Positions 14,876-46,184 of a stretch of 64,000 nt of DNA are shown in pieces. Both the position numbers and the translations under genes were made by a program. How positions within the stretch are numbered: position 1 is the stretch's first letter; every line of letters begins with the position of its first letter. The DNA is from Paracoccus sp. MC1862 (lineage in GTDB: Bacteria > Pseudomonadota > Alphaproteobacteria > Rhodobacterales > Rhodobacteraceae), in the NCBI RefSeq assembly GCF_016617715.1, contig NZ_CP067226.1:1-64000 (forward strand). Direction: 5' to 3'. Under the pieces are notes generated by a model. The model did not search any database and had not been told where the DNA came from. It saw nothing but the letters and a program-made list of their open reading frames with translations.

Positions 14876-14903
14876 GACCTGCGCCCCGGCCCGTTTCGGG
14901 TGG

Positions 14904-20115: not shown

Positions 20116-20127
20116 CCCGCGTGCGCC

Positions 20128-20241: not shown

Positions 20242-20270
20242 CCTGGTGTCCACGAAACCGGCAGCAGGCC

Positions 20271-21805: not shown

Positions 21806-21845
21806 TCTGGATGGTTGCAACATGGGATAGCCCGTCCAAAGTGGC

Positions 21846-22898: not shown

Positions 22899-22899
22899 C

Positions 22900-23787: not shown

Positions 23788-23788
23788 C

Positions 23789-25278: not shown

Positions 25279-25356
25279 GTCGCCTCCTCCCAAAGGCTCG
25301 ACATTTTTGCGCAGGCCACATGGCCCACGAAAGGATCACACAATTAAACCGCGGGA

Positions 25357-26523
25357 TCACACACCGAGCCGCTCCTTTGCCTCGGCGACCAGTGCCTTCG
25401 CGATGATGGTCTGCTGGATCTGGGTTGTACCTTCGTAGATGCGGTAAAGCCGCGCGTCGCGGAAGAGCTGCTCGGCGCGGTATTCGCGGATATAGCCGTT
25501 GCCGCCGTGGACCTGCACGTTGCGGTCGGCGACCCGGCCGACCATCTCTGAGGCGAACATCTTGGCGCACGCCGCCGCCATGGATACGTCCTCTCCCGCG
25601 TCGCGCCGCCGCGCTGCGTCCAGAACCAGTGCGTGGGCGGCCATTGCGTCGGCCTTGCTGTCGGCGAACATCCCTTGGATCAGCTGGAAGTCGGCAATGG
25701 CACGACCGAACTGCTTTCGCTCGGCGGCATAGGCGACCATGTCGTCGATCATCCGCTCGGCCAGGCCCGTGCAGGCGGCGGCGATGCCAAGGCGGCCCTT
25801 GTCCAGCACCTTCATCGCCGTCTTAAAGCCCTGCCCCTCGATCCCCCCAATCAGCGCCTCCGCAGGCACCCGGCAGTCCTGGAAGATCACGTCGGCCACA
25901 TGGGCGCCCTGCTGGCCCATCTTCTTCTCGGGCTTGCCGACGGAAAGACCCGGCGTCCCTGCCTCGACCGCGAAGGCGGACACGCCCGCCGCGCCCTTCC
26001 TGTCGGGGTCGGTGCGCGCCATGACGGTAAATAGCCCCGCGTGCGGCGCGTTGGTGATGAAGCGCTTGGTGCCGTTCAGGACATAATGGTCGCCATCGCG
26101 CCGCGCGGTGGTCCGCACGCTGCCCGCGTCGGAACCGACATCCGGTTCGGTCAGCGCGAAGGAACCGATGATCTCGCCCGAGGCGAGGCCGGGCAGGTAT
26201 TTCGCCTTTTGCTCGTCGGTGCCGTCGATCACGATGCCTTGGCTGCCGATGCCGACGTTGGTGGCGAACATCGACCGGAAGGCGGGCGCGGCGCGGCCGA
26301 TCTCGAAGGCGACCAGCACCTCCTCCTCCATCGTCAAGCCGAGGCCGCCGTATTCCTCGGGGATCGACAGGCCAAACAGGCCCATCTCGCGCATCCCCTC
26401 GACCACGTCGGCCGGTATGGCGTCGGTTTCGGCCACTTCGGGCTCGCGCGGGATCAGCTTCTCGTCCACGAAACGGCGGATGCCGGCGACGAGTTGGTCT
26501 CGGGTGTCGGGATCAAGGGCCAT
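25357..26523 (-). CDS. Acyl-CoA dehydrogenase, dicarboxylyl-CoA type candidate
   Basis: A 388-residue flavoprotein that introduces the alpha-beta double bond in acyl-CoAs and passes electrons to ETF. Visible are LFGLSIPEEYGGLGL, the FAD-binding FALTEPDVGSD and RFITNAPHAG, the helical KVLDKGRLGIAAACTGLAER and ERKQFGRAIADFQLIQGM, and the C-terminal VQVHGGNGYIREY with catalytic Glu in RLYRIYEGTTQIQQ. No pimCD-like pair is present in the window, so this enzyme is the best candidate for oxidising pimeloyl-CoA (inference from context). A strong promoter is at 26548-26576 and GGAGGAACG precedes the ATG. Confidence 0.85.
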   Translation of the reverse strand: MALDPDTRDQLVAGIRRFVDEKLIPREPEVAETDAIPADVVEGMREMGLFGLSIPEEYGGLGLTMEEEVLVAFEIGRAAPAFRSMFATNVGIGSQGIVIDGTDEQKAKYLPGLASGEIIGSFALTEPDVGSDAGSVRTTARRDGDHYVLNGTKRFITNAPHAGLFTVMARTDPDRKGAAGVSAFAVEAGTPGLSVGKPEKKMGQQGAHVADVIFQDCRVPAEALIGGIEGQGFKTAMKVLDKGRLGIAAACTGLAERMIDDMVAYAAERKQFGRAIADFQLIQGMFADSKADAMAAHALVLDAARRRDAGEDVSMAAACAKMFASEMVGRVADRNVQVHGGNGYIREYRAEQLFRDARLYRIYEGTTQIQQTIIAKALVAEAKERLGV

Positions 26524-26547
26524 GGTCGTTCCTCCACTATTTAAGAC

Positions 26548-26576
26548 AATATACTGTTACAAATCTTTGCAAGCAA
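26548..26576 (-). promoter_or_regulatory. Promoter of the ACAD-livGFHM operon
   Basis: On the minus strand TTGCTT (26576-26571), 17 nt, then TATATT (26553-26548). The predicted start is about 18 nt upstream of the ATG at 26523. The 142-bp gap is AT-rich and also serves the divergent dehydrogenase gene at 26666; TTGATAT occurs twice at 26581-26587 and 26609-26615 and may be a regulator site. Confidence 0.6.
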
Positions 26577-26665
26577 TCGAATTGATATCTGTATGAATAG
26601 ATAGAAGTTGATATGACCGCTGGAATGTAGAACAATGCATTGACTGAATAACTGGGGAGGGACAG

Positions 26666-27706
26666 ATGGAAGCCGTCATGCTGCACGAGCGCGGGGCCGC
26701 AGGGCCGCGTCTGACGCGAATCGATAAGCCGCCCCGGCCTGAGGATGGCGTCCTTGTGCGGATGCTGGCCGCTTCGGTGAACCGTGTTGACCTTTACATG
26801 CGCGACTCAGGCGTGGGCATCACCCACGAACTGCCGCTGGTTATGGGCGTCGACGGCATGGGCGAGGTGCTGGAGACGGCCCCCGATTCAGCCTTCAAGC
26901 CCGGCGACCGCGTGATCCTGTATCCTTATGACTTCTGCGGGCGCTGCCGCTATTGCCTTGCGGGCGACCAGCCGCTGTGTCTGCGCGCCCGCATCTTCGG
27001 AGAACATGTCGACGGCACATTCACCGAGATCATGGCCGCGCCCGAACGCGCACTGGTCCGCCTGTCGCCTGCAGTGGACATCCATCGGGCAGCGACGCTC
27101 GGCGTGGCCTATCTGACCGCCTGGCGCATGATCTTCGGCAAGATGGCGACCGGGCCGGGGCGGATCGTCTTCATCCAGGGCGCGGGCGGCGGCGTGGCCT
27201 ATGCCGCGATGCAGCTGGCCCGGATGGCAGGCGCGCGGGTCATTGTCTCGACCTCGGGCGAGGAGAAGCTTGCGCATTTCCGCGATCTCGGCGTCGAGGC
27301 GGTAGACTATCGCGACGGCGACATGGTCAAGCAGGTCCTGGTCCTGACCGATGGCGAGGGTGCCGACCTGGTCATCGACAACGTGGGAGAAAAGACCTGG
27401 GGTTCGTCGCTGCGGGTTATGGCGCGGGGCGGGCACCTGGCGACCTGCGGGGCGACCACCGGGGCGCATCCTTCGGCCGACATCCAGCGGCTCTTCGTGC
27501 GGCAGTTGTCGATCCACGGCTCGACCATGGGCAGCCTAGAGGAGTTCCGGCGTCTCGTCCGAGCGTTCGAGACCGGCGCCTTCGTGCCGCCCATCGACAG
27601 CACCTATCCCTTGGCCGAAGTCCCCGCCGCCTTCGCCCGGCTCGAGGAAACCAACCGCATGGGCAAGATCGTCATCTCTATTGCCGAACCGGAGGGGACT
27701 GCATGA
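26666..27706 (+). CDS. Zinc-binding MDR-family alcohol dehydrogenase / enoyl reductase
   Basis: A 346-residue medium-chain dehydrogenase/reductase. The structural-zinc loop CGRCRYCLAGDQPLC (four Cys) is intact. The catalytic-zinc Cys is replaced (ASVNRVDLYMRDSG) and the usual GHE is GVDGMGE, so catalytic zinc is probably not bound and the enzyme may work like quinone-oxidoreductase or acryloyl/crotonyl-CoA-type reductases. The Rossmann motif is IQGAGGGVAYAAMQLARMAG. GGGGAGGGACAG precedes the ATG. The stop overlaps the next gene's ATG (ATGA), so the two are coupled. Substrate unknown; an acyl-CoA or ring-ketone intermediate is likely from context. Confidence 0.8.
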   Translation: MEAVMLHERGAAGPRLTRIDKPPRPEDGVLVRMLAASVNRVDLYMRDSGVGITHELPLVMGVDGMGEVLETAPDSAFKPGDRVILYPYDFCGRCRYCLAGDQPLCLRARIFGEHVDGTFTEIMAAPERALVRLSPAVDIHRAATLGVAYLTAWRMIFGKMATGPGRIVFIQGAGGGVAYAAMQLARMAGARVIVSTSGEEKLAHFRDLGVEAVDYRDGDMVKQVLVLTDGEGADLVIDNVGEKTWGSSLRVMARGGHLATCGATTGAHPSADIQRLFVRQLSIHGSTMGSLEEFRRLVRAFETGAFVPPIDSTYPLAEVPAAFARLEETNRMGKIVISIAEPEGTA

Positions 27707-28479
27707 GCTACCAGACCATCCTGACCGCCCGCGACGGCGCCGTTGGCATAATCACCCTGAACCGCCCCGAAGCCCTGAACGCGCTGAACGGCCAGATCAC
27801 GGCGGAACTCGGCCAAGCCGTGGAGGAGATGGAGCGCGACGACGGGATCAACGTCATCGTCCTGACTGGCTCGGACAAGGCCTTTGCCGCCGGTGCCGAC
27901 ATCAAGGAAATCCTCGACAAGACGTTCATCGACGTCTTCGACGAACAGTTCATCACCGCGACATGGGAACGCATCGCCCGCTGCCGCAAGCCGACCATCG
28001 CCGCCGTATCCGGCCACGCCATTGGCGGCGGCTTCGAGCTTGCGATGATGTGCGACATCATCATCGCCGCCGAATGCGCCCGCTTCGCGCTGCCCGAAAC
28101 GAAGATCGGCATCATCCCTGGAGCGGGCGGCACGCAGCGGCTGACGCGGGTGGGGGGCAAGGCGCTGGCCATGGACATGATCCTGACCGGCCGCCGTCTG
28201 GCCGCCGAGGAGGCGCGCGCCCATGGTCTTGTCAGCCGGGTGGTGCCGGACGGCGAGCATCTGACCGCCGCCATCGCTATCGCGCAGGAGATGGCACAAT
28301 CCTCGCGGCCGATCCTGCTGATCGCCAAGGAGGCCGTGAACAAGGCCTACGAGACGCATCTGGCCGAGGGCATCCATCTGGAACGCCGGCTGCTCTATTC
28401 GACCTTCGCCATCGAAGACCGGCGTGAGGGCATGACCGCCTTCAGCGAAAAGCGGAAGCCCAGGTTCCGCAACCGCTGA
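27703..28479 (+). CDS. Enoyl-CoA hydratase, BadK-like candidate
   Basis: A 258-residue crotonase. Hallmarks are ALNGQITAELGQAVEEM, KAFAAGADIKEI, the oxyanion and first catalytic Glu in HAIGGGFELAMMCDI, and the second Glu in FALPETKIGIIPGAGGTQRL. The C-terminus EDRREGMTAFSEKRKPRFRNR is typical. Both catalytic glutamates are present, so hydratase activity is expected. The overall form resembles BadK, which hydrates cyclohex-1-ene-1-carboxyl-CoA to the 2-hydroxy compound, and also short-chain crotonyl-CoA hydratases. It supplies the hydration step missing from the badHI-aliAB operon. ATG overlaps the upstream stop. Confidence 0.8.
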   Translation: MSYQTILTARDGAVGIITLNRPEALNALNGQITAELGQAVEEMERDDGINVIVLTGSDKAFAAGADIKEILDKTFIDVFDEQFITATWERIARCRKPTIAAVSGHAIGGGFELAMMCDIIIAAECARFALPETKIGIIPGAGGTQRLTRVGGKALAMDMILTGRRLAAEEARAHGLVSRVVPDGEHLTAAIAIAQEMAQSSRPILLIAKEAVNKAYETHLAEGIHLERRLLYSTFAIEDRREGMTAFSEKRKPRFRNR

Positions 28480-28536
28480 TAACGGCCGGTCCGCCCGGAA
28501 GGCGCGGCCAGCATCCCCGGGCTATCCGCATGCGGT

Positions 28537-28968
28537 TCAGACCAGATGCGGCTCTAGCGCCGCACGCAGCCAGTCCGGAAGCGGCTGCTTGCCGTCCCTT
28601 TGCGCGATAAAGACGTTGACGCTGTTCAGCGAGAAGCAGTGCTCGCCCTTCTGCCAGCCGGTCGCGCGAAACCCCATCGAGGTCCGCCCGAGCCGCGTCA
28701 CCTCAATGGTGAAATCGAGGTCCGCGTCGCCGCGCACGGGAGACGCGAAGTCCACGTCCAGATGGACGAAGGGCATCCCCACCCCCAGCCGGACTGACAT
28801 GGCATACCATCCCCGTCCTTCGGTCACGTCAGACAGGAAGCGGTCGATGGCGCGCAGCGCGGCATTCACCAGCGCCCCGGTATAGGCGATCCCGGCCGGG
28901 TCGCAGTCCCCAAAGCCCATGTGATGAGTGTAGCGATAGACCTCGGCGGGAAGGGCGGACTGGCTCAT
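28537..28968 (-). CDS. Acyl-CoA thioesterase, 4-HBT hotdog family
   Basis: A 143-residue hotdog-fold thioesterase. The N-terminal motif HMGFGDCDPAGIAYTG carries the catalytic Asp of the 4-hydroxybenzoyl-CoA thioesterase group, followed by PFVHLDVDFASPVRGDADL and RLGRTSMGFRATGW strands. It is the last gene of the 11-gene bad/ali operon, 10 nt after etfA. It may release CoA from dead-end or over-accumulated acyl-CoAs. No signal peptide. The convergent hydratase gene ends 57 nt away. Confidence 0.8.
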   Translation of the reverse strand: MSQSALPAEVYRYTHHMGFGDCDPAGIAYTGALVNAALRAIDRFLSDVTEGRGWYAMSVRLGVGMPFVHLDVDFASPVRGDADLDFTIEVTRLGRTSMGFRATGWQKGEHCFSLNSVNVFIAQRDGKQPLPDWLRAALEPHLV

Positions 28969-28978
28969 GTGGGTTCCG

Positions 28979-29908
28979 TCACAGCTTCTCGGTCAGTTCC
29001 GGCAGGACGGTGAAGATGTCGCCGACGAGGCCGTAGTCGGCGACCTGGAAGATGGGGGCTTCCTCGTCCTTGTTGATGGCGACGATGACCTTGCTGTCCT
29101 TCATCCCCGCGAGGTGCTGGATCGCGCCCGAGATGCCGGCGGCGATGTAAAGCTCGGGCGCCACCACCTTGCCGGTCTGGCCCACCTGCCAGTCGTTCGG
29201 GGCATAGCCCGAATCGACCGCCGCGCGGCTTGCACCCACGGCGGCGCCGAGCTTGTCCGCGAGCTTCTCGATCAGCGCGAAGTTCTCCTTCGAGCCGACC
29301 GCGCGGCCGCCCGAGACGATGCGTTTCGCCGAGGTCAGTTCCGGGCGGTCCGAGGCCGCAACCCGGTCCTCGACCCAGGAGGACAGGCCGGGATCGGCGG
29401 CGGCGGCGGCGGCCTCGACCGGGGCCGAGCCACCCTCGCCCGCCGCGTCGAAGCTGGCGATGCGCACCGTCAGCACCTTGATCGGGTCCGAGGACTTCAC
29501 CGTCTGGATCGCGGCCGAGGTGTAGACGCCGCGCTCGAAGGTGTCGGCGTCCACGATCCGGCTGACCTCGGGGATCACCATCACGTCCAGAAGCGCCGCG
29601 GCCCGCGGCAGGACGTTGCGGGCATCCGTGGTGCCCGGGGCGGCGATGTGGCTGAACTGCGGCGCAAGCCCGACCAGCAGCGCCGCCATCGGCTCGGCCA
29701 GGCGGTGGGCGTAGGCCGCGCCCTCGGCCACCAGCACCTTCGCCACGCCCGCGATCTGCGCGGCGTCTTGGGCGGCCGCCTGCGCGCCCTCGCCCGCGAC
29801 CAGCACGGCCACATCCCCAAGCGGCGTCACCGCCGTCACGGCCTTGGCCGTCGCGTCCCGGTTCAGCCCGTTCTCGGCCATCTCGGCCAGCAGCAGCACC
29901 GCCATCAC
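28979..29908 (-). CDS. etfA: Electron transfer flavoprotein alpha subunit
   Basis: A 309-residue ETF alpha subunit. The N-terminal domain is [20 protein letters not shown]. The C-terminal FAD domain shows [60 protein letters not shown] and [21 protein letters not shown]. It accepts electrons from acyl-CoA dehydrogenases in the locus and hands them to ETF-ubiquinone oxidoreductase (not in the window). It overlaps etfB by 4 nt. A dedicated copy within a catabolic operon implies a high flux of acyl-CoA oxidation. Confidence 0.95.
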
Positions 29909-30663
29909 ACCACCCCCGCAGCTTTGAGTTTCGACACCAGCTCGTCGACCGAGGCCACCTTGACCCCCGCCTTGCGCCCCTCGGGCTCGGCGGTCCTGAC
30001 CACCGTCAGCCGGGGCGAGACGTCCACGCCGTAGTCACCGGCGGTCTTTTCGACGAGTTCCTTCTTCTTCGCCTTCATGATGTTGGGCAGGCTCGCATAG
30101 CGCGGCTCGTTCAGCCGCAGGTCGGCGGTCACGATCGCGGGCAGGCTGACCTCGATCACCTGCAGCCCGCCGTCGACCTCGCGCGTGACGGTGGCCTTCT
30201 CGCCCTCGACTTCCAGCTTGCCGGCCTGCGTCGCCTGCGCCCAGCCCAGCAGTGCCGCCAGCATCTGGCCGGTGGCGTTCATGTCGTTGTCGATCGCCTG
30301 CTTGCCCATCAGCACCAACTGCGGCTGCTCCTCGGCGATGATGGCCTTCAGCAGCTTGGCCACCGCGAGGGGCTCGATGTCCTGGTGCACGTCGTCGGCG
30401 GCCACCACCAGGATGCCGCGGTCGGCGCCCATGGCCAGCGCCGTGCGGATGGTTTCGGCCGCCTGCTTGACGCCGATCGACACCACCACGATCTCGGACG
30501 CCGCGCCCTTCTCCTTCAGACGGATCGCCTCCTCGACCGCAATCTCGTCAAAGGGGTTCATCGACATCTTCACGTTCGACAGGTCCACCCCCGACCCGTC
30601 CGCACGAACCCGCGCCTTCACGTTGTAGTCGATCACCCGCTTCACAGGCACAAGAACCTTCAT
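29905..30663 (-). CDS. etfB: Electron transfer flavoprotein beta subunit
   Basis: A 252-residue ETF beta subunit beginning [20 protein letters not shown], with the AMP-binding and dimer segments [40 protein letters not shown] and the family stretch [19 protein letters not shown], followed by [10 protein letters not shown]. This C-terminal loop is the recognition element for dehydrogenases. It sits 12 nt after gcdH and overlaps etfA by 4 nt. Confidence 0.95.
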
Positions 30664-30675
30664 TTCCGCATCTCC

Positions 30676-31869
30676 TCAGAAGAACGCCTGCAGCCCGGTC
30701 TGCGCCCGACCCAGGATCAGGGCGTGGACGTCATGGGTGCCCTCGTAGGTGTTCACGGTTTCCAGGTTCACCATGTGGCGCATCACCGGGTATTCGTCCG
30801 AGATGCCGTTGCCGCCGTGCATGTCGCGGGCCACCCGCGCGATCTCCAGGGCCTTGCCGCAGTTGTTGCGCTTGATGAGGGAGATCATCTCGGGCTGCAT
30901 CCTGCCGGCCTCGAACAGCCGCCCGACCCGCAGGGCCGCGTTCAGGCCGAGCGTGATCTCGGTCATCATGTTCGCAAGCTTCAACTGGTGCAGCTGCGTC
31001 TGCGCCAGGGGCTTGCCGAACTGCTTGCGATCCAGCCCATAGGACCGCGCCGCGTGCCAGCAGGCCTCGGCCGCGCCCATCGAGCCCCAGGCGATGCCAT
31101 AGCGCGCGCGGTTGAGGCAGCCGAAGGGGCCACCCAGGCCCTCGGCATTTGGCAGCAGGGCATCCTCGCCCACTTCGACCTCCTCCATGACGATCTCGCC
31201 GGTTACGGAGGCGCGCAAGGACAGCTTGCCCTCGATCTTCGGAGCGGACAGGCCCTTCATGCCCTTTTCCAGCACAAAGCCACGGATCTTGCCGCCATGC
31301 GCCTCGGACTTCGCCCAGACCACGAAAACATCGGCGATGGGGCTGTTGGTGATCCACATTTTGGACCCGTTCAGCCGGTAGCCGCCCTCGGTCTTCCTCG
31401 CGGTGGTCTTCATGCCGCCTGGATCCGAGCCCGCGTCGGGCTCGGTCAGGCCGAAGCAGCCCACCCATTCGCCGGAACAGAGCTTCGGCAGGTACTTGCG
31501 CCGCTGTTCTTCCGAGCCATAGGCATTGATCGGGTGCATTACCAAGGACGCCTGCACCGACATCATGGATCGGTAGCCCGAATCCACCCGCTCGACCTCC
31601 CGCGCAACCAAGCCGTAACTGACATAGCCTGCGCCGGTGCCGCCGTATTCCTCGGGGATGGTGACGCCCAGTAGGCCAAGCTCGCCCATCTCGGTGAAGA
31701 TGGCGCGGTCGGTGTGCTCCTTCTGGAAGGCCTCGCGCACGCGGGGGGCGAGGCGGTCCTGCGCATAGCTCCGCGCGGTGTCGCGGATCATGCGTTCTTC
31801 CTCGGTCAGCTCGTCTTCCAGAAGGAAGGGGTCTTCCCAGCGGAAGCTGCCTGTGCGGTCCATCTTCAT
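30676..31869 (-). CDS. gcdH: Glutaryl-CoA dehydrogenase
   Basis: A 397-residue acyl-CoA dehydrogenase of the glutaryl-CoA type, which oxidises and decarboxylates glutaryl-CoA to crotonyl-CoA and CO2. Diagnostic stretches are [20 protein letters not shown], the substrate-binding [18 protein letters not shown] (with the Arg that pairs with the omega-carboxylate), [25 protein letters not shown]-like [16 protein letters not shown], and the catalytic Glu in [17 protein letters not shown]. The start at 31869 follows AGGAGAAAC; the frame is open further upstream. It completes the path from pimeloyl-CoA to crotonyl-CoA within the operon. Confidence 0.9.
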
Positions 31870-31889
31870 GGTCGTTTCTCCTGTCTGGA

Positions 31890-33092: not shown

Positions 33093-33102
33093 CGTGGGCT
33101 CC

Positions 33103-35148: not shown

Positions 35149-35161
35149 GAAGGACCTCCGT

Positions 35162-35923: not shown

Positions 35924-37572
35924 GCGCGATCAAGCTCCTCGTGCAGCATCTTGCGCAGCGCGAATTTCTGGATCTTGCCGGATGCGGTGGCCGGCAGGCT
36001 CTCGCGGATCTCCAGCCGCTCGGGCCAGTACTGGATCGCCAGCTTGTGTTCGCCCAAGTGGCGCCGCATCTCGTCGAAATCGAAGCTCGCGTCCGGTTTC
36101 AGCGTGACGAAGGCGCAGGCGCGTTCGCCCAGCCGGTCGTCGGGGTAGGCGACGATGGCGACCTGGTGGATCGCCGGGTGCCTGAACAGGACGCCCTCGA
36201 CCTCGAAGACGGGGATGTTCTCGGCACCGCGGATGATGATGTCCTTGGACCGGCCTGCAATGCGGATATAGCCGCGCTCGTCCATGCGTGCGATGTCGCC
36301 GGTATCGAACCAGCCATTGTCATCGGTCGCGTTCAGCAGCGGGCGCTTGAGATAGCCGCCGAAGTTAGAACAGGCACGGACGAACAGTTCCCCCGCCTGG
36401 CCCGGAGGGCAGACGTTCCCGTCATCGTCGCGGATCTGGATCTCGACACCCGGAAGCGGGAAGCCATCCGTGTTGATCGAGCGCTCGTCGTCGTCGGAAG
36501 GGTCCACCACGGTCAGCGCGCCGTTCTCGGTCATGCCCCAGGCCGAGACCACCTTGGTGCCGGTCATCACCTGCCGCGCGCGTTCAACGACCGGGCCGGG
36601 GATCGGCGCCCCGGCGCACAGGAAGATCCGCAGAGAGCTGCTGTCGAACTTGTTTTCATCGACGGCGTTCGTGAGGTCCATCAGGAAGGGGGTCGAGGCC
36701 ATGGTGAAGGTGATGCGGTCGTCCTGCACCATCTGTCCCTTCAGCCGCTTGTCCCAGGTGTCGAACAGGATCGACCGCGCCTTGAGGTAGATCGGCATCA
36801 GCAGACCGTACATGAACCCCGTCTGGTGGGCCATGGGCGAGGCCATGGCGATCACGTCATCCGCCGTCAGCCCCAGGCGTTCCGAATAGGGAATGAGGTT
36901 GGAATACATGGTGTTCGAGGTGTGCATCACGCCCTTGGGCTCGCCCGTCGTGCCGCTGGTGTAGATCAGCTGGTTGACGTCGTCGGGACCGGGGCGGTTG
37001 GCGGTCACGATCCGCTGCAACTCGGGGTCAGCGTCAAAGGCGGGGTCGGCCAGCAGCGCGTCGAAGCTGTTTTCGCCCGCACCGTTATTGACAACGATGT
37101 GCTGCAGATCGGGAAGTTGGGGCTTCATCCCCTCGGCCATCGCCTCGTGGTCGAAGTTGCGAAACACCGTGGGGACGATGAAGACCTTGGACTCGCCGTG
37201 GCGCAGCATGAACAGCAGTTCATGTTCGCGGAAGATCGGCATCACCGGGTTGAAGACCGCCCCGATCCGCGCGCAGCCGAGATAGGTCGCCACGAACTGC
37301 CAGCTATTGGGAAGCTGGCAGGTCACCACGTCGTCGCGTTCCACGCCAAGCCGCGTCAAGCCCACCGCCACGCGGTTGGCGGCACGGTCCAATTCCACCC
37401 AGGTGAAGTCACACCGCTGTCCATCAGACACGCTGATCGAGCTTAGCGCCAGCTGGTCTGGCTTCTCGGCCAGCACCTCGTCGAAATAGTCGTTGACGGT
37501 CTTGTTGCGCCAGTGGCCGGCGCGGACCATAGCCTCGCGGCGCGGCTCGATCAGGATAGCGTCGAACTTCAT
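35920..37572 (-). CDS. aliA: Cyclohexanecarboxylate-CoA ligase (AliA-like)
   Basis: A 550-residue AMP-dependent acyl-CoA ligase. The P-loop is QLIYTSGTTGEPKGVMHT, with A5 motif VVSAWGMTENGAL, A8 DTGDIARMDERGYIRIAGRS and KDIIIRGAENIPVFEVE, and the catalytic Lys in LPATASGKIQKFALR. It activates a carboxylic acid to its CoA thioester with ATP. Assignment to AliA rests on overall form and on the neighbours aliB, badI and badH, which in Rhodopseudomonas palustris lie together. It lies 39 nt after aliB. A benzoate or medium-chain substrate remains possible. Confidence 0.75.
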   Translation of the reverse strand: MKFDAILIEPRREAMVRAGHWRNKTVNDYFDEVLAEKPDQLALSSISVSDGQRCDFTWVELDRAANRVAVGLTRLGVERDDVVTCQLPNSWQFVATYLGCARIGAVFNPVMPIFREHELLFMLRHGESKVFIVPTVFRNFDHEAMAEGMKPQLPDLQHIVVNNGAGENSFDALLADPAFDADPELQRIVTANRPGPDDVNQLIYTSGTTGEPKGVMHTSNTMYSNLIPYSERLGLTADDVIAMASPMAHQTGFMYGLLMPIYLKARSILFDTWDKRLKGQMVQDDRITFTMASTPFLMDLTNAVDENKFDSSSLRIFLCAGAPIPGPVVERARQVMTGTKVVSAWGMTENGALTVVDPSDDDERSINTDGFPLPGVEIQIRDDDGNVCPPGQAGELFVRACSNFGGYLKRPLLNATDDNGWFDTGDIARMDERGYIRIAGRSKDIIIRGAENIPVFEVEGVLFRHPAIHQVAIVAYPDDRLGERACAFVTLKPDASFDFDEMRRHLGEHKLAIQYWPERLEIRESLPATASGKIQKFALRKMLHEELDRA

Positions 37573-37611
37573 TGGTAGTCCCCCCTTGCAGTGTGCGGCT
37601 TTCGGCTCTCC

Positions 37612-38772
37612 TCAGCCGGTGACCGCGTCCCGTCCAGCGCGTTCCCGCGCGATGATGTTCTTCATGATATGCGCGGTGCCGTCGCCGATCTGCAGCCCCA
37701 GCACGTCCTTGAGCCGCTGCGCGAAGGGCAGGTCGCCCGCATAGCCCGCGTGACCGTGGATCAGCAGGCAAGCGTGGATCGCCTCATAGGCCAGCAGTGG
37801 CGGCCACCACTTGGTCATGGCGGCCTCGGCGGTGTGTGGAAGGTTGTTGTCCTTGAGCCACAGCGCGTTCATCGACAGAAGCCGCGCGCCAGCCAGCTTC
37901 GTCTCGAAGTCCGCAAGCTGGTGGCTGACGCCTTGGAAGGCGCCGAGCGGCTTTCCGAATGCGCGGCGCTCGCCGATATAGGCCCAGGTCTCGTCAAGCG
38001 ACTGCTGCGCGGTGCCCACACATTGCAACCCGATCAGGCTGCGCGAAAAGTCGAAGCCCTGCATGACCTGGGCAAAGCCCCGGCCTTCCTCTCCCAGCAG
38101 GTTTTCCGCGGGCACCCGCACGTTGTCGAACCAGATCGAGCCGTGGCCGATCGAGTTCTGGCCCATGTTGTCGAACTTGGACGTGCTGATGCCGTCCAGA
38201 TCCATCGGCACGAGGATGGCTGACACGCCCCGCGCACGGTCCTCGGCTTTGCCGGTGCGGGCAAAGACGATGGTGCCGGCGGCGATCTGGTTGGCCGAGA
38301 TCGAGGTCTTCTCGCCGTTCAGGATGTAATGCGCGCCATCGCGCTCCATCCGCAGCCCGAGGTTTGCCGCGTCCGAGCCGCCCTTGGGTTCCGTGAGGGC
38401 GATAGCCAGCATGATCTCGCCCGCCGTCAGCTTTGTCAGCCATTCGCGGGCGATTTCCCGCTTTGCGAATTGGGCAAGGACCTGGCCGTTCAGCGAGCCC
38501 AGAAGCGGCACGTAGCCGAAGGTGAAATCAGCGCGGCCGATTTCCTCGACGATGGCGCCGGCATAGATCGTGCCCGCGCCCATGCCGCCGAAGTCCTCGG
38601 GCAGTTCCGGGGCGATCAGCCCGAGGCTGCCCATCTCGCGCACAAGGTCCATGTCCATGCGGCCCGCCCTCTCGCGGGCCTGGTAGCCCGGCGCGACGCG
38701 GTCCTGCGCAAAGCGGCGCGCGAGATCGCGGATCTGATCCAGTTCCTCGGTGTCGAAAACGGTCTTGGACAT
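37612..38772 (-). CDS. aliB: Cyclohexanecarboxyl-CoA dehydrogenase (AliB-like)
   Basis: A 386-residue acyl-CoA dehydrogenase. Recognisable parts are LGLIAPELPEDFGGMGAG, IALTEPKGGSDAANLGLRME, GQNSIGHGSIWFDNVRVPAE, VMQGFDFSRSLIGLQCVGTA and KWWPPLLAYEAIHACLLIHG. The usual catalytic YEGT is QIGDGTAHIMKN: Asp replaces Glu. This pattern and the LTEPKGGSDAANL segment match my recollection of ring-acyl-CoA dehydrogenases such as AliB. It would convert cyclohexanecarboxyl-CoA to cyclohex-1-ene-1-carboxyl-CoA with ETF as acceptor. ATG at 38772 follows GGTGAGG; an upstream extension to 38826 is possible but unlikely. Confidence 0.8.
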   Translation of the reverse strand: MSKTVFDTEELDQIRDLARRFAQDRVAPGYQARERAGRMDMDLVREMGSLGLIAPELPEDFGGMGAGTIYAGAIVEEIGRADFTFGYVPLLGSLNGQVLAQFAKREIAREWLTKLTAGEIMLAIALTEPKGGSDAANLGLRMERDGAHYILNGEKTSISANQIAAGTIVFARTGKAEDRARGVSAILVPMDLDGISTSKFDNMGQNSIGHGSIWFDNVRVPAENLLGEEGRGFAQVMQGFDFSRSLIGLQCVGTAQQSLDETWAYIGERRAFGKPLGAFQGVSHQLADFETKLAGARLLSMNALWLKDNNLPHTAEAAMTKWWPPLLAYEAIHACLLIHGHAGYAGDLPFAQRLKDVLGLQIGDGTAHIMKNIIARERAGRDAVTG

Positions 38773-38833
38773 AAGCCTCACCCCCGGCAGATCGAAAAAG
38801 GGGACCGCCCGGCGGGGGCAGTCCACGCTGGAC

Positions 38834-39625
38834 TCAGCCCTTGCGGGCGACGTGCTTGCGGAAGTCGGGCTTGCGCTTTTCCTTGAAGGCGACGCCGCCT
38901 TCCTTGGACTCGTCGGTGTCGTAATAAAGCGACAGCGCCCGCATCCCCATAGCCGAGATGCCGCGGATGCTTTCGGTATCGGCGTTGAAGGACACTTTCG
39001 CCATCGCCAGCGCGGTGGGCGAGCGGTCCATCAGTTCGGCCACCCAGCGGTCCACCTCGGCGTCCAGCTCCTCGGCAGGGACGACGGCGTTCGCAAGGCC
39101 CCAGTCCAGCGCCTGCTGCGCGGTATAGCGCTTGTTCAGGTACCAGATCTCGCGGGCGCGCTTTTCGCCCACGACGCGGGCCAGATAAGCGGTGCCGAAG
39201 CCGGGATCGACCGAGCCGACCTTGGGGCCGACCTGCCCAAACTGCGCGGTGTCGGACGCGATGGTCAGGTCGCAGATCGTCGCCAGCACGTTGCCGCCGC
39301 CGATGGCGAAGCCGTTGACCCGCGCGATGACGGGCTTCGGCACGTCGCGGATCAGGGACTGCAACTCGTCGATGGGCAGGCCGATCACGCCGCGCCCGTC
39401 ATACTGGCCGTCATGGGCCGACTGGTCGCCGCCGGTGCAGAAGGCCTTGTCGCCCGCGCCGGTCAGGACGATCACGCCGACCTCGCGGTCCCAGCCCGCC
39501 TTCTGGAAAGCGTCGATCAGTTCATCGACGGTGTGGCCGCGGAAGGCGTTGTACTTGTCGGCGCGGTTGATGGTGATCCAGGCCGCGCCGTTGCGGTTCT
39601 CGTACAGGATGTCGGTATAGTCCAT
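38834..39625 (-). CDS. badI: 2-Ketocyclohexanecarboxyl-CoA hydrolase (BadI)
   Basis: A 263-residue crotonase-superfamily enzyme that opens the ring of 2-ketocyclohexane-1-carboxyl-CoA to pimeloyl-CoA. The protein is strongly BadI-like: NAFRGHTVDELIDAF, AFCTGGDQSAHDGQYDGRG, IARVNGFAIGGGNVLATICD, FGQVGPKVGSVDPGFGTAY and LYYDTDESKEGG. The hydratase glutamate of GGGxE is Asn here (GGGNVL), and GPKVGSVDPGFG replaces PETKxGxxPG, as in the BadI/MenB-like subgroup that performs (retro-)Claisen chemistry. It lies between badH (13 nt) and aliB (61 nt). Confidence 0.9.
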   Translation of the reverse strand: MDYTDILYENRNGAAWITINRADKYNAFRGHTVDELIDAFQKAGWDREVGVIVLTGAGDKAFCTGGDQSAHDGQYDGRGVIGLPIDELQSLIRDVPKPVIARVNGFAIGGGNVLATICDLTIASDTAQFGQVGPKVGSVDPGFGTAYLARVVGEKRAREIWYLNKRYTAQQALDWGLANAVVPAEELDAEVDRWVAELMDRSPTALAMAKVSFNADTESIRGISAMGMRALSLYYDTDESKEGGVAFKEKRKPDFRKHVARKG

Positions 39626-39638
39626 GATGGTTCCTCCG

Positions 39639-40406
39639 TTAACCGTGCATCGTCAGGCCGCCGGACACCGAGATCACTTGGCCGGTGATGAACGAGGCGT
39701 CGTCGGAGGCAAAGAACAGGATCGCGCCCGGCAGATCCTCGGGGCGCCCGAGCCGTCCCAGTGGCACGGCCTTGGTAAAGGCGTCGCGCAGCTTGTCCTT
39801 GTTGCCCGCAGCTTCCATGAAGCTGTCGAGCATCGGCGTGTCGGTGACGCCGGGGCAGACGCAGTTGAAGGTCAGCCCCTGCCGCGCGTGTTCCCGCGCC
39901 AGCGTCTTGGAAAATGCGATCACGCCGGCCTTGCAGGCAGCATAGACGGATTCGCCAGACGAGCCCACGCGCGCTGCGTCCGACGCCACGCTGACCACCC
40001 GGCCAGACTTGCGTTCTGCCATCCTCGCCACCACCGGATGAGTGATGTTCAGCACCGACTTCAGGTTGATGTCGATCAGCTTCGACCAGTAGTCCGGTTC
40101 GGACTTCAGGAACGTGACGAACGAATCCCAGCCCGCATTGTTGACAAGCACGTCGATCGGTCCGATCTCGGCCTCGACCTTCTCGACCGCGACGCGCACG
40201 GCCTCTGCATCGGTGAGATCGACGACCATGGGGGACGCCTTGCCGCCGGCCGCCGTGATCCGGTCAACCACCGCCTGCGCAGCATCCGCCTTGATGTCAG
40301 CGACCACGACAAGCGCGCCTTCCTCGCCGAACCGCTCGCAGGTGGCCGAGCCGATGCCGCCACCTCCGCCAGTTACGACAACAACTTTATCCTTGAGTCC
40401 GCGCAT
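39639..40406 (-). CDS. badH: 2-Hydroxycyclohexanecarboxyl-CoA dehydrogenase (BadH)
   Basis: A 255-residue SDR, first gene of the operon. It has TGGGGGIGSATCERFGEEG, NNAGWDSF, catalytic SVASDAARVGSSGESVYAAC with YAACK, and SFITGQVISVSGGLTMHG. The GWD after NNA and the DAARVGSSGE segment agree with BadH, the NAD-dependent enzyme that makes the 2-keto ring-CoA for BadI. ATG at 40406 is used because GAGGAAC lies 4-5 nt upstream; a TTG lies 12 nt further up. A promoter at 40508-40536 and a palindrome at 40495-40507 precede it. Confidence 0.85.
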   Translation of the reverse strand: MRGLKDKVVVVTGGGGGIGSATCERFGEEGALVVVADIKADAAQAVVDRITAAGGKASPMVVDLTDAEAVRVAVEKVEAEIGPIDVLVNNAGWDSFVTFLKSEPDYWSKLIDINLKSVLNITHPVVARMAERKSGRVVSVASDAARVGSSGESVYAACKAGVIAFSKTLAREHARQGLTFNCVCPGVTDTPMLDSFMEAAGNKDKLRDAFTKAVPLGRLGRPEDLPGAILFFASDDASFITGQVISVSGGLTMHG

Positions 40407-40494
40407 GATGTTCCTCAACCCTATTCGCTCTGCACCGAATGCAAGCTGCGAGGCTTTGATTTACAGCCGTGCAGCGTGGAAAGGTGCGTTGATT

Positions 40495-40507
40495 CTCTTT
40501 CTAAGAG
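40495..40507. promoter_or_regulatory. Candidate BadR operator, CTCTT-TCT-AAGAG
   Basis: A perfect 5-bp inverted repeat with a 3-nt centre, just downstream of the badH -10 box and covering its predicted transcription start. A MarR-type regulator bound here would block the catabolic operon. It is the only clear palindrome in the 187-bp divergent gap. Confidence 0.45.
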
Positions 40508-40536
40508 TATTTGCCAGTCAGCACCATTTGTGTCAA
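40508..40536 (-). promoter_or_regulatory. Promoter of the badH operon
   Basis: Minus strand: TTGACA (40536-40531), 17 nt, CAAATA (40513-40508). It overlaps the badR promoter on the other strand almost base for base. Predicted start near 40501, about 95 nt upstream of badH. Confidence 0.6.
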
Positions 40537-40539
40537 TAT
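40511..40539 (+). promoter_or_regulatory. Promoter of badR
   Basis: Plus strand: TTGCCA (40511-40516), 17 nt, CAATAT (40534-40539). Predicted start near 40546, about 48 nt before badR. It occupies the same DNA as the divergent badH promoter, so the two cannot easily fire at once. Confidence 0.55.
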
Positions 40540-40593
40540 GTTTACTGATAAGTTCGCTTTCTCTACCATTCTCGGATACCCTCGGAGCTTCGC

Positions 40594-41115
40594 ATGAACA
40601 GCCGCCCTGCCCCGCCGACCCAGGACACTGCCGCCATCGATGCGCTGACTGCTGGCCTGCGCAACCGGCTGTTCTTCCGGCTGTACCAGACCGCCAACCT
40701 GCTGAACAAAACCGGCAACCGTGCGCTCGAAGATCACGGCGTGACCACGCAGCAGTGGGCGATTCTGGGCGCATTGGCCGACCCGCGGAGCGAAGGAGGG
40801 ATTTCGGTCGGTGATCTTGCCGCCCTGCTCATGGTCAGCCGCCAGAACCTGACCGGCGTGCTGTCACGGCTCGAGTCCCGCGGCCTGATCGCCCGGACGG
40901 TGGACGTGCGCGACAAGCGCTCGCGTTTCATCTGCCTGACCGGCGAGGGATTGCAGAGATGGGCCGAGATGCAGCCGCAGATCAACGAGTTCTACCAGGC
41001 CTCGCTGGCAGATTTCTCGACCTCGGACCTCATCGCCGCGATGCACTACCTTGAGAGGCTGCGGCACAACTTCGTCGTGCTTGAGGGAGGGCAGGGCGAA
41101 GCGGAGGGCGACTGA
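40594..41115 (+). CDS. badR: MarR-family regulator (BadR-like)
   Basis: A 173-residue winged-helix MarR protein: FFRLYQTANLLNKTGNRALE, VTTQQWAILGALADP, recognition helix SVGDLAALLMVSRQNLTGVL, and wing SRGLIARTVDVRDKRSRFICL. It is divergent from badH. In R. palustris the MarR protein BadR represses the badHI-aliAB-badK genes and is relieved by ring-acyl-CoA intermediates; the same role is inferred here. GGAG lies 8 nt upstream of the ATG. Confidence 0.8.
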   Translation: MNSRPAPPTQDTAAIDALTAGLRNRLFFRLYQTANLLNKTGNRALEDHGVTTQQWAILGALADPRSEGGISVGDLAALLMVSRQNLTGVLSRLESRGLIARTVDVRDKRSRFICLTGEGLQRWAEMQPQINEFYQASLADFSTSDLIAAMHYLERLRHNFVVLEGGQGEAEGD

Positions 41116-41191
41116 CCGCAGGAGCCCCGTTCCCGATCTTGCCCGAGGCAGTCAGCCGGACCCCGGCGAACGGGGCCGCCCCCGTCCCCGA

Positions 41192-42751
41192 TCAAGAGGC
41201 TCGAGCGGAATCCTTACGCGCTTCGCCCTGCCTGGATGCGAGGCTTTCCACGATTTCCCGCTTCAGGATCTTTCCTGTCGGACCCAGAGGGAAGCTGTCG
41301 AAGAACTCGATTCGCCGGGGAACCTTGTACGAGGCCAGACGATCCCGGCAGAAGGATAGCAGCGTTTCGCCGGAAATCTCGGCACCCTCGCGGATGACGA
41401 TGCATCCTATCGCCAGTTCACCCTTGACGGCGTCCGGCACCGCGACCACCGACACCAGGGCGACCGCGGGGTGCGCTGCCAGGACGGCCTCGACCTCGGC
41501 GGGGAAGATGTTCGAGCCGCCGGTGATGATGACGTCCTTCTTACGGTCCAGCATGTAGAGGAACCCGTCCTCGTCGAGCATGCCGATGTCCCCGCTTCGC
41601 CAGCCGTGGCTGGTGAAGGCGGCAGCCGTCGCCGCGGCGTCCTGCCAGTATCCCGCCCCGAGCAGATCCCCAGCCACGCAGATCTCGCCCGGCTGCCCAG
41701 CCGGCTGCGGGTTGCCCGCATCGTCCAGGATCGAGATCGTCGCACTGCCCATCGGCCTGCCGACCGAGCCGGGCTTGCGCCGGCCTTCGGGCGCCTCGGT
41801 TGTGCAGATGCCGCAGAGTTCGCTCGCCCCGTAGGCATTCACCAACGGCACTCCGAAGGTCGTCTCGAAGCGCGCCTGGACATCGGGCGGCAGCGGCGCC
41901 CCCCCCGCCATGCACAGCCGCAGGCCGCTCGTGTCGTGGCGCGCCGGATCATGCCCTTCCAGCAGATAGGAGAACATGGTCGGCGTCCCGGCGAAGAAGG
42001 TCGCGCGGTGCTCAGTCATCAGCGACAGGATCGCGGCCGTGTCCCACTTCCCGTTCAGGATCAGGGTGCCGGCTGCGTACAGGCAGCCATTCAGCATGAC
42101 CGTCGCGCCGAAATTGTTGAACAGCGGCACCGCGCATAGGAAGCGCTCCTGCTGCCAGCGCATCCTGTGATGCGAATGAGTGTCCCGAATCGCGTGATAG
42201 ATCGCGCGGTGCGTCTGCATCGCACCCTTCGGCAATCCGGTGGTTCCCGAAGTGAAGAAGATCGCGGCGACGTCCTCGGGATCGACCGGCACGGGTTCGA
42301 AGACATCCGGCCACTTCGGCAGTTCGTCGCGCAGCGCGGTCCCCCAGTCCGGGGCGTCCCCGCCGGACACGAGCACATACTGGAGGTCGGGCAGTGAGCC
42401 GCGCACGGCGTCCACGACCGGCACGCCTTCACTCCGGCAGATCAGCACCGGCATGCGGGTCTTTCGGCCCAATGTCTCGACTTCCGACGACTTGTAGCTG
42501 TCGCTGATCGGCAGCGCGATGGCACCGATCTTCTGACAGGCGTGATAGGTGACCGCGACCTCGGGCGTGCTGGGCAGGTAAAGACCGACAGGCGTCCCCT
42601 TCCCCACGCCAAGGCTGCTCAGCAGGCCCGCCAGCCGGGCGGTCCGGCGGTTGAACTCGGCATAGGTTATACTTTCGCCCTCGAAGAGGAGGAAGGGCTT
42701 GTCCGGGAACCAGCGCGCCGTGGTCTCCAGCATCATTCCAAGCGTCTGCAT
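41192..42751 (-). CDS. AMP-dependent acyl-CoA ligase
   Basis: A 519-residue class I adenylate-forming ligase. P-loop IFFTSGTTGLPKGAMQT, A5 LVNAYGASELCGICTT, A7 WRSGDIGMLDEDGFLYMLDR and KKDVIITGGSNIFPAEVE, and the catalytic Lys in FPLGPTGKILKREI. It lies 79 nt downstream of the binding-protein gene and is probably cotranscribed from the promoter at 44097-44125. Import followed by CoA activation would trap the solute. The substrate is unknown; the family contains benzoate, fatty-acid and carnitine-type ligases. Confidence 0.85.
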   Translation of the reverse strand: MQTLGMMLETTARWFPDKPFLLFEGESITYAEFNRRTARLAGLLSSLGVGKGTPVGLYLPSTPEVAVTYHACQKIGAIALPISDSYKSSEVETLGRKTRMPVLICRSEGVPVVDAVRGSLPDLQYVLVSGGDAPDWGTALRDELPKWPDVFEPVPVDPEDVAAIFFTSGTTGLPKGAMQTHRAIYHAIRDTHSHHRMRWQQERFLCAVPLFNNFGATVMLNGCLYAAGTLILNGKWDTAAILSLMTEHRATFFAGTPTMFSYLLEGHDPARHDTSGLRLCMAGGAPLPPDVQARFETTFGVPLVNAYGASELCGICTTEAPEGRRKPGSVGRPMGSATISILDDAGNPQPAGQPGEICVAGDLLGAGYWQDAAATAAAFTSHGWRSGDIGMLDEDGFLYMLDRKKDVIITGGSNIFPAEVEAVLAAHPAVALVSVVAVPDAVKGELAIGCIVIREGAEISGETLLSFCRDRLASYKVPRRIEFFDSFPLGPTGKILKREIVESLASRQGEARKDSARAS

Positions 42752-42830
42752 AACGTGATCCTCAAGGGCTAATAGGCTGCAGCACAGGAAGGAAGCGCCT
42801 GCCCGCCGCTTCCCCTTGTTCGTGCAGGCT

Positions 42831-44036
42831 TCACTGCACCAGAGGGCAGCCGCCTTCGGAGAGCGGACGGAACGCCTCGGCCGCCGGGATCGTCGCGACC
42901 GTCTCGTACAAGTCCCATTCGCCCGTCGATTTTTCCGGCGACTTCACGCGGAACAGGTACATGTCGTGGATCGCGCGTCCATCGGCGCGGATCTCGCCCT
43001 TGCCGAACAGCGGATCGTCGATGGGCGTTTCCTTCATCTTTGCCATCACCGCCGAGGCGTCCTTGGTGCCGGCCGCCTCGACCGCCTCGAGGTAGTGCAT
43101 GATCGAGGAGTAGACCCCGGCATGAACCTGCGTCGGCATCCGACCCCCGTGCGCTTCGGCGAACCGCTGGGACCAGGCCCTGCTTTCGTCGCTCTGATCC
43201 CAGTAGAAGGCTTCGGTCAGCACCAGTCCCTGCGCCGTTTGCAGCCCGAGGGAATGGACGTCGGTGATGAAGGCCACCAGCGCGGCGACGGACTGGCCGC
43301 CCTGCATGATGCCGAACTCGGCCGCCTGCTTGACGGCGCTGATCATGTCGCCACCCCCATTCGCCAGGCCAATCACCTTGGCACCGGAGGATTGGGCCTG
43401 CAGCAGAAAAGAGGCAAAGTCGCTGGTGCCGAGCGGATGGCTCGCGGACCCGACAACTGTCCCGCCCGAAGCTTCAACGACGGCGGAGGCATCCTGCTGC
43501 ATGGCCTTGCCGAAGGCGTAATCCGCCGAAATGAAGAACCAGCTGTCGCCGCCCTGCTGGACCATGGCCCGCGCCGTTCCGTTGGCCAGCGCCCAGGTGT
43601 CATAGGTCCAGTGCACGGTGTTGGGCGAGCACTTGGCGCCGGTAAGCTCCGCCGTGCCGGCCCCCGAGTTCAGGTGGATGCGGCCCTTTTCGCGGGCCAG
43701 ATCGCTGACCGCCAAGGCGATCGCCGATCCCGGTATGTCCGAGATGACATCGACGCCCTGCTGGTCGAACCAGTTGCGCGCGATATTGCTGCCGACGTCC
43801 GGCTTGTTCTGGTGATCTGCCGCCAGCACCTCGACATTGATGCCCTTCGAGGCGCCGTCGAAATCCTCGACCGCCATGCGGGCAGCGACGACCGAGCCCA
43901 TGCCTGCCAGGTCGGAGTAGATCCCCGACTGATCGTTCAGCACGCCGATCTTGATGCTGATGTCTTCCGCCAGGCTCGGGCTGACCCCGAGCACAAGGCT
44001 GGCCGCGAACACGTGCGTTCCAATTTTCTTGAGCAA
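42831..44036 (-). CDS. ABC transporter periplasmic binding protein, LivK-like
   Basis: A 401-residue type 1 periplasmic-binding-fold protein with a signal peptide (KKIGTHVFAASLVLGVSPSLAE, cleavage near residue 24). It continues IKIGVLNDQSGIYSDLAG, AVEDFDGASKGINVEVL and FISADYAFGKAMQQDASAV, features of the branched-chain/carboxylate receptors. TTG at 44036 is chosen because GGGGAGGA lies 6 nt upstream; an in-frame ATG at 44057 lacks an SD. It is the only HAAT receptor in the window and is the plausible partner of LivGFHM at 21900-25278. The ligand is inferred to be a carboxylic acid. Confidence 0.85.
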   Translation of the reverse strand: MLKKIGTHVFAASLVLGVSPSLAEDISIKIGVLNDQSGIYSDLAGMGSVVAARMAVEDFDGASKGINVEVLAADHQNKPDVGSNIARNWFDQQGVDVISDIPGSAIALAVSDLAREKGRIHLNSGAGTAELTGAKCSPNTVHWTYDTWALANGTARAMVQQGGDSWFFISADYAFGKAMQQDASAVVEASGGTVVGSASHPLGTSDFASFLLQAQSSGAKVIGLANGGGDMISAVKQAAEFGIMQGGQSVAALVAFITDVHSLGLQTAQGLVLTEAFYWDQSDESRAWSQRFAEAHGGRMPTQVHAGVYSSIMHYLEAVEAAGTKDASAVMAKMKETPIDDPLFGKGEIRADGRAIHDMYLFRVKSPEKSTGEWDLYETVATIPAAEAFRPLSEGGCPLVQ

Positions 44037-44096
44037 ACCACATCCTCCCCGATGCAACTGCCTTCATCCCGTGCCGAGTGGCACAGGACCATCCCA

Positions 44097-46162: not shown

Positions 46163-46184
46163 GGTTTCTTCTTTCGTGATCGGG

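Follow-up and report, generated by a model that had tools for sequence, protein, structure and literature searches.

The locus described here, a predicted cyclohexanecarboxylate (CHC) operon of Paracoccus sp. MC1862, has its closest described counterparts in the bad-ali-aab cluster of Aromatoleum sp. CIB and the badHI-aliBA-badK genes of Rhodopseudomonas palustris. According to the main text of Sanz and Diaz (2022, PMC9795900), badHI of Aromatoleum sp. CIB are needed for growth on CHC with and without oxygen, and the aab genes beside bad-ali lead from pimelyl-CoA to glutaryl-CoA. The repressor BadR has CAATNNATTG as its operator, with CHC-CoA as the effector that releases it; altering the first or second base of the operator inverted repeat abolished BadR binding. 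The same text assigns a CAAN4TTG site to most, though not all, Gram-negatives, predicts that the published operators overlap -35 boxes, reports that badK is missing from many clusters and finds that in Thauera phenolivorans, among other Gram-negatives, gcdH-etfAB are joined to it.

We analysed a window of 64,000 nucleotides, bases 1-64000 of contig C2 (113,686 bases) in a genome of 3.63 Mb on seven contigs. It holds eleven intact minus-strand frames, running from 40406 down to 28537 in the order badH-badI-aliB-aliA-SDR-pimF-pcaF-gcdH-etfB-etfA-thioesterase (SDR, short-chain dehydrogenase/reductase). We are confident, short of certainty, that these genes represent a BadR-repressed catabolic operon converting CHC to crotonyl-CoA.

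As in Aromatoleum sp. CIB, where aerobic use is also known, AliA, AliB-, BadH- and BadI-like proteins and a MarR-type BadR are encoded next to a candidate set for pimelyl-CoA beta-oxidation. Judged by the published description (PMC9795900), the window differs from that cluster in having apparently one operon behind badH, a fused hydratase/dehydrogenase, no badK in the operon, a variant badH operator and an adjoining HAAT transporter. With R. palustris it shares the order badH-badI-aliB-aliA and the divergent badR. The R. palustris genes are linked to anaerobic benzoate breakdown (PMC9795900); in the window the predicted lower-pathway genes come next in what appears to be the same operon, and a genome search with the model for benzoyl-CoA reductase D (the one reductase subunit searched) gave no match. 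A role in anaerobic benzoate degradation was rejected on that result, and the ring genes probably lie outside it. All eleven genes recur in this order on Salipiger abyssi plasmid pPABY2 (NZ_CP015090), where badR, the crotonase gene and the extra dehydrogenase gene adjoin them; the eleven proteins are 36-83% identical to those of the window. Unlike the window, pPABY2 has TRAP transporter genes in place of HAAT, and no Zn-reductase gene was found between its dehydrogenase and crotonase genes.

The eleven genes and the proposed route

Related loci were the best 80 of 456, picked by similarity to the BadI of the window, so that counts over them do not reflect natural frequencies; flanks extended to at most 10 kb, which makes the counts for the lower module lower bounds. 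Counts over 82 loci (at least 55% identity) omit L011, L012 and the loci of the genome itself. The tblastn queries included gcdH and aliB minus the first three residues, with M at the first position, and badH, etfA, livG and the binding protein from an upstream alternative start. AliA, AliB, BadI, BadH and the thiolase were scored against curated NCBIfam cut-offs. The eleven genes, all on the minus strand, are as follows.

39639-40406, minus: badH-like 2-hydroxycyclohexanecarboxyl-CoA dehydrogenase (an SDR), first gene of the operon; TIGR03206 381.4 bits (cut-off 431.2), next family 240.6
38834-39625, minus: badI-like 2-ketocyclohexanecarboxyl-CoA hydrolase (ring opening); TIGR03210 463.9 bits (cut-off 467.6), next MenB families 342.7 and 307.1
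37612-38772, minus: aliB-like cyclohexanecarboxyl-CoA dehydrogenase; TIGR03207 573.2 bits (cut-off 575.35), next family 251.6
35920-37572, minus: aliA, cyclohexanecarboxylate-CoA ligase; TIGR03208 818 bits, above the cut-off of 792.3
35162-35923, minus: FabG-like SDR after aliA; at least 55% identity in 23/82 related loci
33103-35148, minus: PimF-like enoyl-CoA hydratase/3-hydroxyacyl-CoA dehydrogenase fusion (candidate for the AabB+AabC role); FadB/FadJ-type matches well below cut-offs
31890-33092, minus: PcaF-type 3-oxoacyl-CoA thiolase (candidate for the AabD/PimB role); NF006551 690 bits against 605, TIGR02430 664 against 597
30676-31869, minus: gcdH, glutaryl-CoA dehydrogenase; PDB 4w9u 681 bits, 3eom 624.8, 1sir 564.7
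29905-30663, minus: etfB
28979-29908, minus: etfA
28537-28968, minus: hotdog (4HBT) thioesterase; PF03061 30.5 bits against 20.6

A preliminary description of the window had named these genes, the SDR apart, by family recognition, and every gene that it named was recovered as an intact frame at or within the positions it gave. After start refinement the gaps are 13, 61, 39, -4, 13, 10, 20, 12, -4 and 10 nt, precisely the range of -4 to 61 nt that it had reported, and this spacing suggests a single transcript. Its family assignments and the route from ring activation to crotonyl-CoA are supported by the NCBIfam and PDB matches, the hydratase, dehydrogenase, thiolase, GcdH and EtfAB of the lower pathway being assigned at family level. 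AliB, BadI and BadH lead the next family by 322, 121 and 141 bits, respectively; with margins of this size AliB and BadI do not fall into other dehydrogenase or crotonase clades. AliB has Asp where the acyl-CoA dehydrogenase 1ukw has Glu, and the same Asp stands in 63 of 76 AliB rows, the other 13 being unreadable at this position. GcdH carries the GYRS and TYEGT motifs and groups by sequence with solved glutaryl-CoA dehydrogenases, among them 3eom and 1sir (database entries 'Glutaryl-CoA dehydrogenase', which we take to be the Burkholderia and human enzymes). We class it as a canonical glutaryl-CoA dehydrogenase; a function of 30676-31869 as pimeloyl-CoA dehydrogenase was rejected because of this grouping.

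What is not new is the union of ring, pimelate and glutarate steps, which the preliminary description had contrasted with separate loci. Clusters joining bad-ali, aab and gcdH-etfAB have been published, as the text of PMC9795900 describes, pPABY2 has the same gene order, and aliAB-badHI occur together with pimF (at least 55% identity, in the same locus and not necessarily adjacent) in at least 22 of the 82 loci.

Uptake, repression and some of the catabolic steps would draw on neighbouring genes:

21900-25293, minus: four genes for HAAT/Liv permeases and ATPases (permeases and one ATPase by Pfam/NCBIfam; gene 23789-24490 assigned by tblastn to Liv clusters alone)
25357-26523, minus: acyl-CoA dehydrogenase, candidate pimeloyl-CoA dehydrogenase (AabA role); at least 55% identity in 28/82 related loci
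26666-27706, plus: Zn-dependent MDR reductase/dehydrogenase; at least 55% in 23/82 loci
27703-28479, plus: crotonase that could fill the otherwise vacant place of BadK (cyclohex-1-ene-carboxyl-CoA hydratase); at least 55% in 36/82 loci
40594-41115, plus: badR-like MarR repressor gene, divergent from badH; Pfam MarR_2 51.6 bits against 27
41192-42751, minus: second acyl-CoA ligase
42831-44057, minus: HAAT periplasmic binding protein; PF13458 366 bits

From these families we infer the following route. CHC would be taken up by the HAAT transporter and activated by AliA to CHC-CoA, which AliB would desaturate with EtfBA as electron acceptor. The crotonase 27703-28479 may then hydrate the AliB product in the role of BadK; BadH would oxidise the resulting intermediate and BadI open the ring to pimeloyl-CoA. 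The dehydrogenase 25357-26523, in the role of AabA, and the PimF fusion would yield 3-oxopimeloyl-CoA, to be cleaved by the PcaF-type thiolase to glutaryl-CoA and acetyl-CoA, and GcdH would convert glutaryl-CoA to crotonyl-CoA and CO2.

The acyl-CoA dehydrogenase and the transporter beside the operon, both noted previously, are indeed present. Of the "BadK-like crotonase" the crotonase gene stands, and the protein is a candidate BadK: the best model is PRK05862 with 366.8 bits against a cut-off of 396, EchA8 is matched at 299.5 bits, and no BadK model is among the 25 of 59 families listed for this protein. The dehydrogenase 25357-26523 matches PimC and PimD weakly (103.5 and 129 bits against cut-offs of 623.85 and 652.7); its AabA role is probable from its linkage (28/82 loci) and from its being the sole unassigned acyl-CoA dehydrogenase of the cluster. 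Likewise, no PimF model is among the families listed for the hydratase/dehydrogenase fusion.

Several points weigh against a CHC operon under BadR control. AliB, BadI and BadH stay below their curated cut-offs by 2, 4 and 50 bits, AliA alone of the four ring enzymes exceeding its own. For BadI this shortfall is a property of the allele and not of the window copy, since all four copies of the same type (on C2 and in genomes G092, G104 and G062) score 459-464 bits, slightly below the cut-off; in the BadI model search of 15 genus genomes, nine gave a match above it. No orthologue of BadK or PimCD is proven. The SDR, the Zn-reductase, the thioesterase and the second ligase have no assigned step in the CHC route. 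The Aromatoleum aabC mutant still grew on CHC, with a longer lag (PMC9795900, main text), which suggests that growth may not strictly require the lower genes. Finally, exact CAAN4TTG has no match in the intergenic region 40407-40593 between badR and badH, and the variant found there alters one critical base in one half-site, so that BadR binding to it is a prediction. All in all, we regard the CHC operon as well observed, real and probably working.

Predicted operator sites of BadR

The window contains one predicted variant operator of BadR and two CAAN4TTG sites between neighbouring genes:

40532-40545, minus: predicted variant BadR operator GTAAAN4TTGAC, merged with the TTGACA -35 box of the badH promoter
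26633-26642: CAATGCATTG, an exact match to the published BadR operator, in the promoter region between the dehydrogenase and Zn-reductase genes
26560-26569: a second CAAN4TTG between the same two genes

In the badR-badH region of the window we found the one-mismatch form CAATATGTTT inside GTCAATATGTTTAC. The related loci contain 56 regions with divergent badR/badH pairs, and a MarR-type badR is divergent from badH in the window too; 32 of the 56 also lack the exact site. Exact CAAN4TTG is nevertheless enriched at the expected places: it occurs in 24/56 badR-badH regions (4.0 expected), in 8 of 19 regions between the dehydrogenase and Zn-reductase genes (1.3 expected) and in two of four between dehydrogenase and crotonase genes (0.3 expected). 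Over the whole window its count is at chance (8 versus 7.7 expected), and it is therefore the position, not the number, of these sites that is informative.

The regions without the exact site share another sequence: TCAAN4TTTA is present in 31 of 37 of them, the window included. Its longer form GTCAAN4TTTAC has 36 sites in 84 loci plus the window (1,626,166 bases in all), compared with 0.3 expected under a first-order Markov model. Thirty-two lie between badR and badH, two beside the Zn-reductase gene (L044 and L073, at distances of 22 and 79 nt) and two elsewhere (L058; L102, 2 kb from badR), and for 25 of the 36 the flanks are less than 60% identical to each other. The motif was discovered in badR-badH regions and counted afterwards, and this procedure accounts for part of its concentration in them. 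Independent support is given by the chance expectation of 0.3 and by three clusters outside the discovery set (L121, L123 and L131), all of which have the variant beside badR. Among 11 other clusters of the genus, 10 have it beside badR and the eleventh (L126) shows no badR; eight of the 11 had already served for discovery or, in the case of L130, closely resemble a locus that had.

Read towards badH, the motif is GTAAAN4TTGAC, and 36 of 40 sites continue to TTGACA, mostly as TTGACATAAA. This raises the question of whether it is merely a strong promoter element and not a BadR site, for which we see perhaps one chance in a few: TTGACA is a canonical -35 box, and at the -10 positions set by a 17-nt spacer A reaches 75% and T 50% (40 sites). 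On the other hand, GTAAAN4TTGAC is a near-palindrome sharing the 4-nt centre of the published CAAN4TTG, the same motif recurs near the Zn-reductase gene in L044 and L073, and published operators are themselves predicted to overlap -35 boxes (PMC9795900, main text). We prefer to see in GTAAAN4TTGAC an operator related to that of BadR but asymmetric, which coincides with the -35 box and to which BadR is predicted to bind. BadR would sit there and on CAATGCATTG, which by prediction ties the dehydrogenase and Zn-reductase genes to the regulon, and by analogy with Aromatoleum CHC-CoA would release it.

Both operator forms occur near badR in five loci. A comparison of 27 variant-class with 14 CAAN4TTG-class BadR proteins for residues that track the operator type gave one weak column only, outside what we judged to be the recognition helix, and the idea was dropped. 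In the open-access literature on BadR operators, or on Paracoccus together with cyclohexanecarboxyl, nothing nearer than PMC9795900 was found, the figures and supplements of that paper being outside the scope. Within that literature the variant was not found in print. We count as fresh the variant operator, the predicted widening of the BadR regulon and the replacement of badI (see below).

Probable patchwork origin of the operon

The nearest clusters are those of the Paracoccus loci L025, L026 and L028, with BadI 95-97% identical to that of the window. Trees were quick ones with SH-aLRT values, and identities had been inspected before the Paracoccus group was named. In the AliB tree, the window forms one clade with L025, L026, L028, L073 and L077 (support 99), and BadH gives the same clade, at 87 only. 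BadI rejects this clade (log-likelihood 132.9 lower, p-AU 2.7e-5) and instead assigns the window, at a support of 98, to nine rows that also comprise L025, L026, L028, one from Novosphingobium and four of Brucella/Ochrobactrum type. Conversely, AliB (p-AU 2e-94) and BadH (6e-5) both reject a grouping of Novosphingobium with the window, L025, L026 and L028.

At the protein level the window BadI is 76% identical to those of L073 and L077, versus 83-93% for BadH, AliB and AliA (AliA of L077, 82%). Sliding DNA identity to Novosphingobium is 80-87% over most of badI and 58-81% in badH, aliB and aliA, whereas that to L077 is 72-80% in badI and 78-88% in badH and aliB. In DNA the badI contrast is clear for Novosphingobium and weaker for L073, with which the first part of badH likewise shares only 74-76%. 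By these comparisons, badI is a foreign-type allele inside a Paracoccus-type operon.

A second cluster lies on contig C5 of the same genome (L105, 5796-8650), with an intact badR, a second badI and scraps of badH, aliA, the SDR gene and the binding-protein gene. Its badI is native-type (491 bits, above the cut-off; 90% identical to L077). Sulfatase, MgtC and FGE genes follow, and MgtC and FGE genes are also found between the SDR and thioesterase genes in L028. The older C5 cluster seems to be decaying, while the copy on C2 is whole. One genus relative, too, has another BadI-like gene (G118:C68:13900-14676, 452.9 bits) in addition to the copy in its bad-ali cluster.

The lower end of the operon has yet other relatives. 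The gcdH-etfBA block (28986-31909) is 90.2% identical in DNA to Paracoccus yeei plasmid pYEE3 (GcdH 96% in protein), where the 14 kb to each side of the block lack BadI, BadH and any close AliA/AliB. The best bad-ali relative, L028, is 83-88% identical elsewhere and keeps merely a scrap of etfA in the gcdH-etfBA region. One may ask, then, whether pimF-pcaF-gcdH-etfBA is a general lower pathway for dicarboxylates or aromatics that is simply parked behind the ring genes. Besides the pYEE3 block, this would fit the occurrence of pimF-pcaF-gcdH-etfBA (59-81% protein identity) on a Leisingera plasmid, where the surrounding 10 kb show neither BadI nor a close AliA/AliB, the score of the thiolase above the 3-oxoadipyl-CoA thiolase cut-off, and another gcdH, 82% identical, on contig C3 (31079-32248). 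Gaps of 10-20 nt behind the ring genes and the co-occurrence of pimF with aliAB-badHI in 22/82 loci argue against this, and we hold the parked module to be unlikely. The Leisingera copy (L116, Leisingera thetidis pBMJM1_2, 10001-16190) has a gene for salicylyl-CoA 5-hydroxylase in its vicinity, and its plasmid is typed as conjugative; its gcdH matches as two overlapping pieces and is absent from the gene list.

The CHC operon thus would be a patchwork on a putatively conjugative plasmid, of Paracoccus-type ring genes, a foreign-type badI and a gcdH-etfBA block common to another Paracoccus plasmid. For alphaproteobacterial bad-ali clusters in general we lean, with reserve, towards a picture in which the asymmetric GTAAAN4TTGAC lies on the badH -35 box and the symmetric CAATNNATTG adds the dehydrogenase/Zn-reductase/crotonase unit to the regulon, and in which exchange is gene-sized, badI having been replaced here and a native-type badI surviving in a decaying second cluster.

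Flanking genes and the replicon

That the operon evolved for a different alicyclic acid, such as an alkylated naphthenic or a terpene-derived ring acid, as its natural substrate, with CHC as an analogue, appears improbable: the SDR (35162-35923), the Zn-reductase (26666-27706), the thioesterase and the second ligase (41192-42751), conserved or present without a CHC step, would suit it, as would a badKHI cluster without aliAB suggested for monoterpenes, while AliA scores above the equivalog cut-off for CHC-CoA ligase, CHC induces the related Aromatoleum cluster, and the badHI of that cluster are required for growth on CHC (main text of PMC9795900).

The second ligase was not found in the closest relative (L124), where the binding-protein gene adjoins badR. 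A different HAAT set, 32-47% identical to that of the window, lies between badI and aliB in 10 of the 82 loci, and in four Pseudomonas/Marinobacter loci (L087, L090, L092 and L098) the four Liv proteins are 54-66% and the binding protein 49-52% identical to those of the window. Given these different sets in different bad-ali clusters, HAAT uptake genes were seemingly recruited more than once. Adjoining the cluster, an SDR, a PRK07327-type crotonase (426.8 bits against 292) and an acetoacetyl-CoA-synthetase-like ligase are encoded in tandem (44566-48113, minus), perhaps a separate acyl-CoA operon.

An AliA above the cut-off is encoded in 12/125 genomes of the genus (15 with a match at E 1e-150), which makes the trait patchy. 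The cluster is not tied to plasmids, since a genus relative (G090) carries it on a single 3.2-Mb contig. The Azoarcus KH32C plasmid pAZKH was discarded as an AabA reference, its locus being another kind of cluster. In the present genome, contig C2 carries the following replication, transfer and mobile-element genes (window coordinates unless C2 is named):

149-1384, plus: RepC-like replication initiator; PF03428 54.5 bits against a cut-off of 24.4
18751-20070: Mutator/IS256-type insertion sequence (IS) gene
20121-21668: ISNCY gene; 478 bits against 250
49383-49940: resolvase gene
57151-58503: IS21 gene; 239 bits against 160
C2 94997-96883: relaxase gene
C2 96895-98988: T4SS-DNA_transf coupling protein
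C2 98985-109069: T2SSE (VirB11-like), TrbI, CagX, VirB8, TrbL and CagE_TrbE_VirB homologues

With relaxase, coupling protein, VirB-type channel genes and replication gene on one contig, C2 is putatively a conjugative, self-transferable-looking plasmid. The repC-bearing replicon of the preliminary description was recovered, and its transferable setting gains from the transfer genes on the same 113.7-kb contig. A mobile-element-flanked island had also been proposed: IS and resolvase genes are present on both sides, but the flanking elements differ in kind (Mutator/IS256-type and ISNCY on the left, resolvase and IS21 on the right) and do not mark out the island as a unit of transfer. As the IS on the two sides do not match, a composite transposon was rejected. 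The conjugation genes on C2 and a 99% copy of 20263-21823 (within the ISNCY gene) on contig C5 support a mobile setting. The window further encodes a pair of RTX-repeat proteins (15227-17926), of which one has a GDSL lipase domain, and ARAGORN reports a tRNA-Arg (tcg) at 10385-10482 of the plasmid contig, overlapping a predicted LysM-domain gene on the opposite strand.

Alicyclic (naphthenic) acids are toxic pollutants of the oil industry. The badI swap gives a clear example of one gene being replaced inside an operon, and the operator variant provides a testable prediction on repressor specificity. A nearly whole route in a compact operon, on a plasmid with conjugation genes, illustrates how the ability to degrade such acids may spread in Paracoccus and its relatives.

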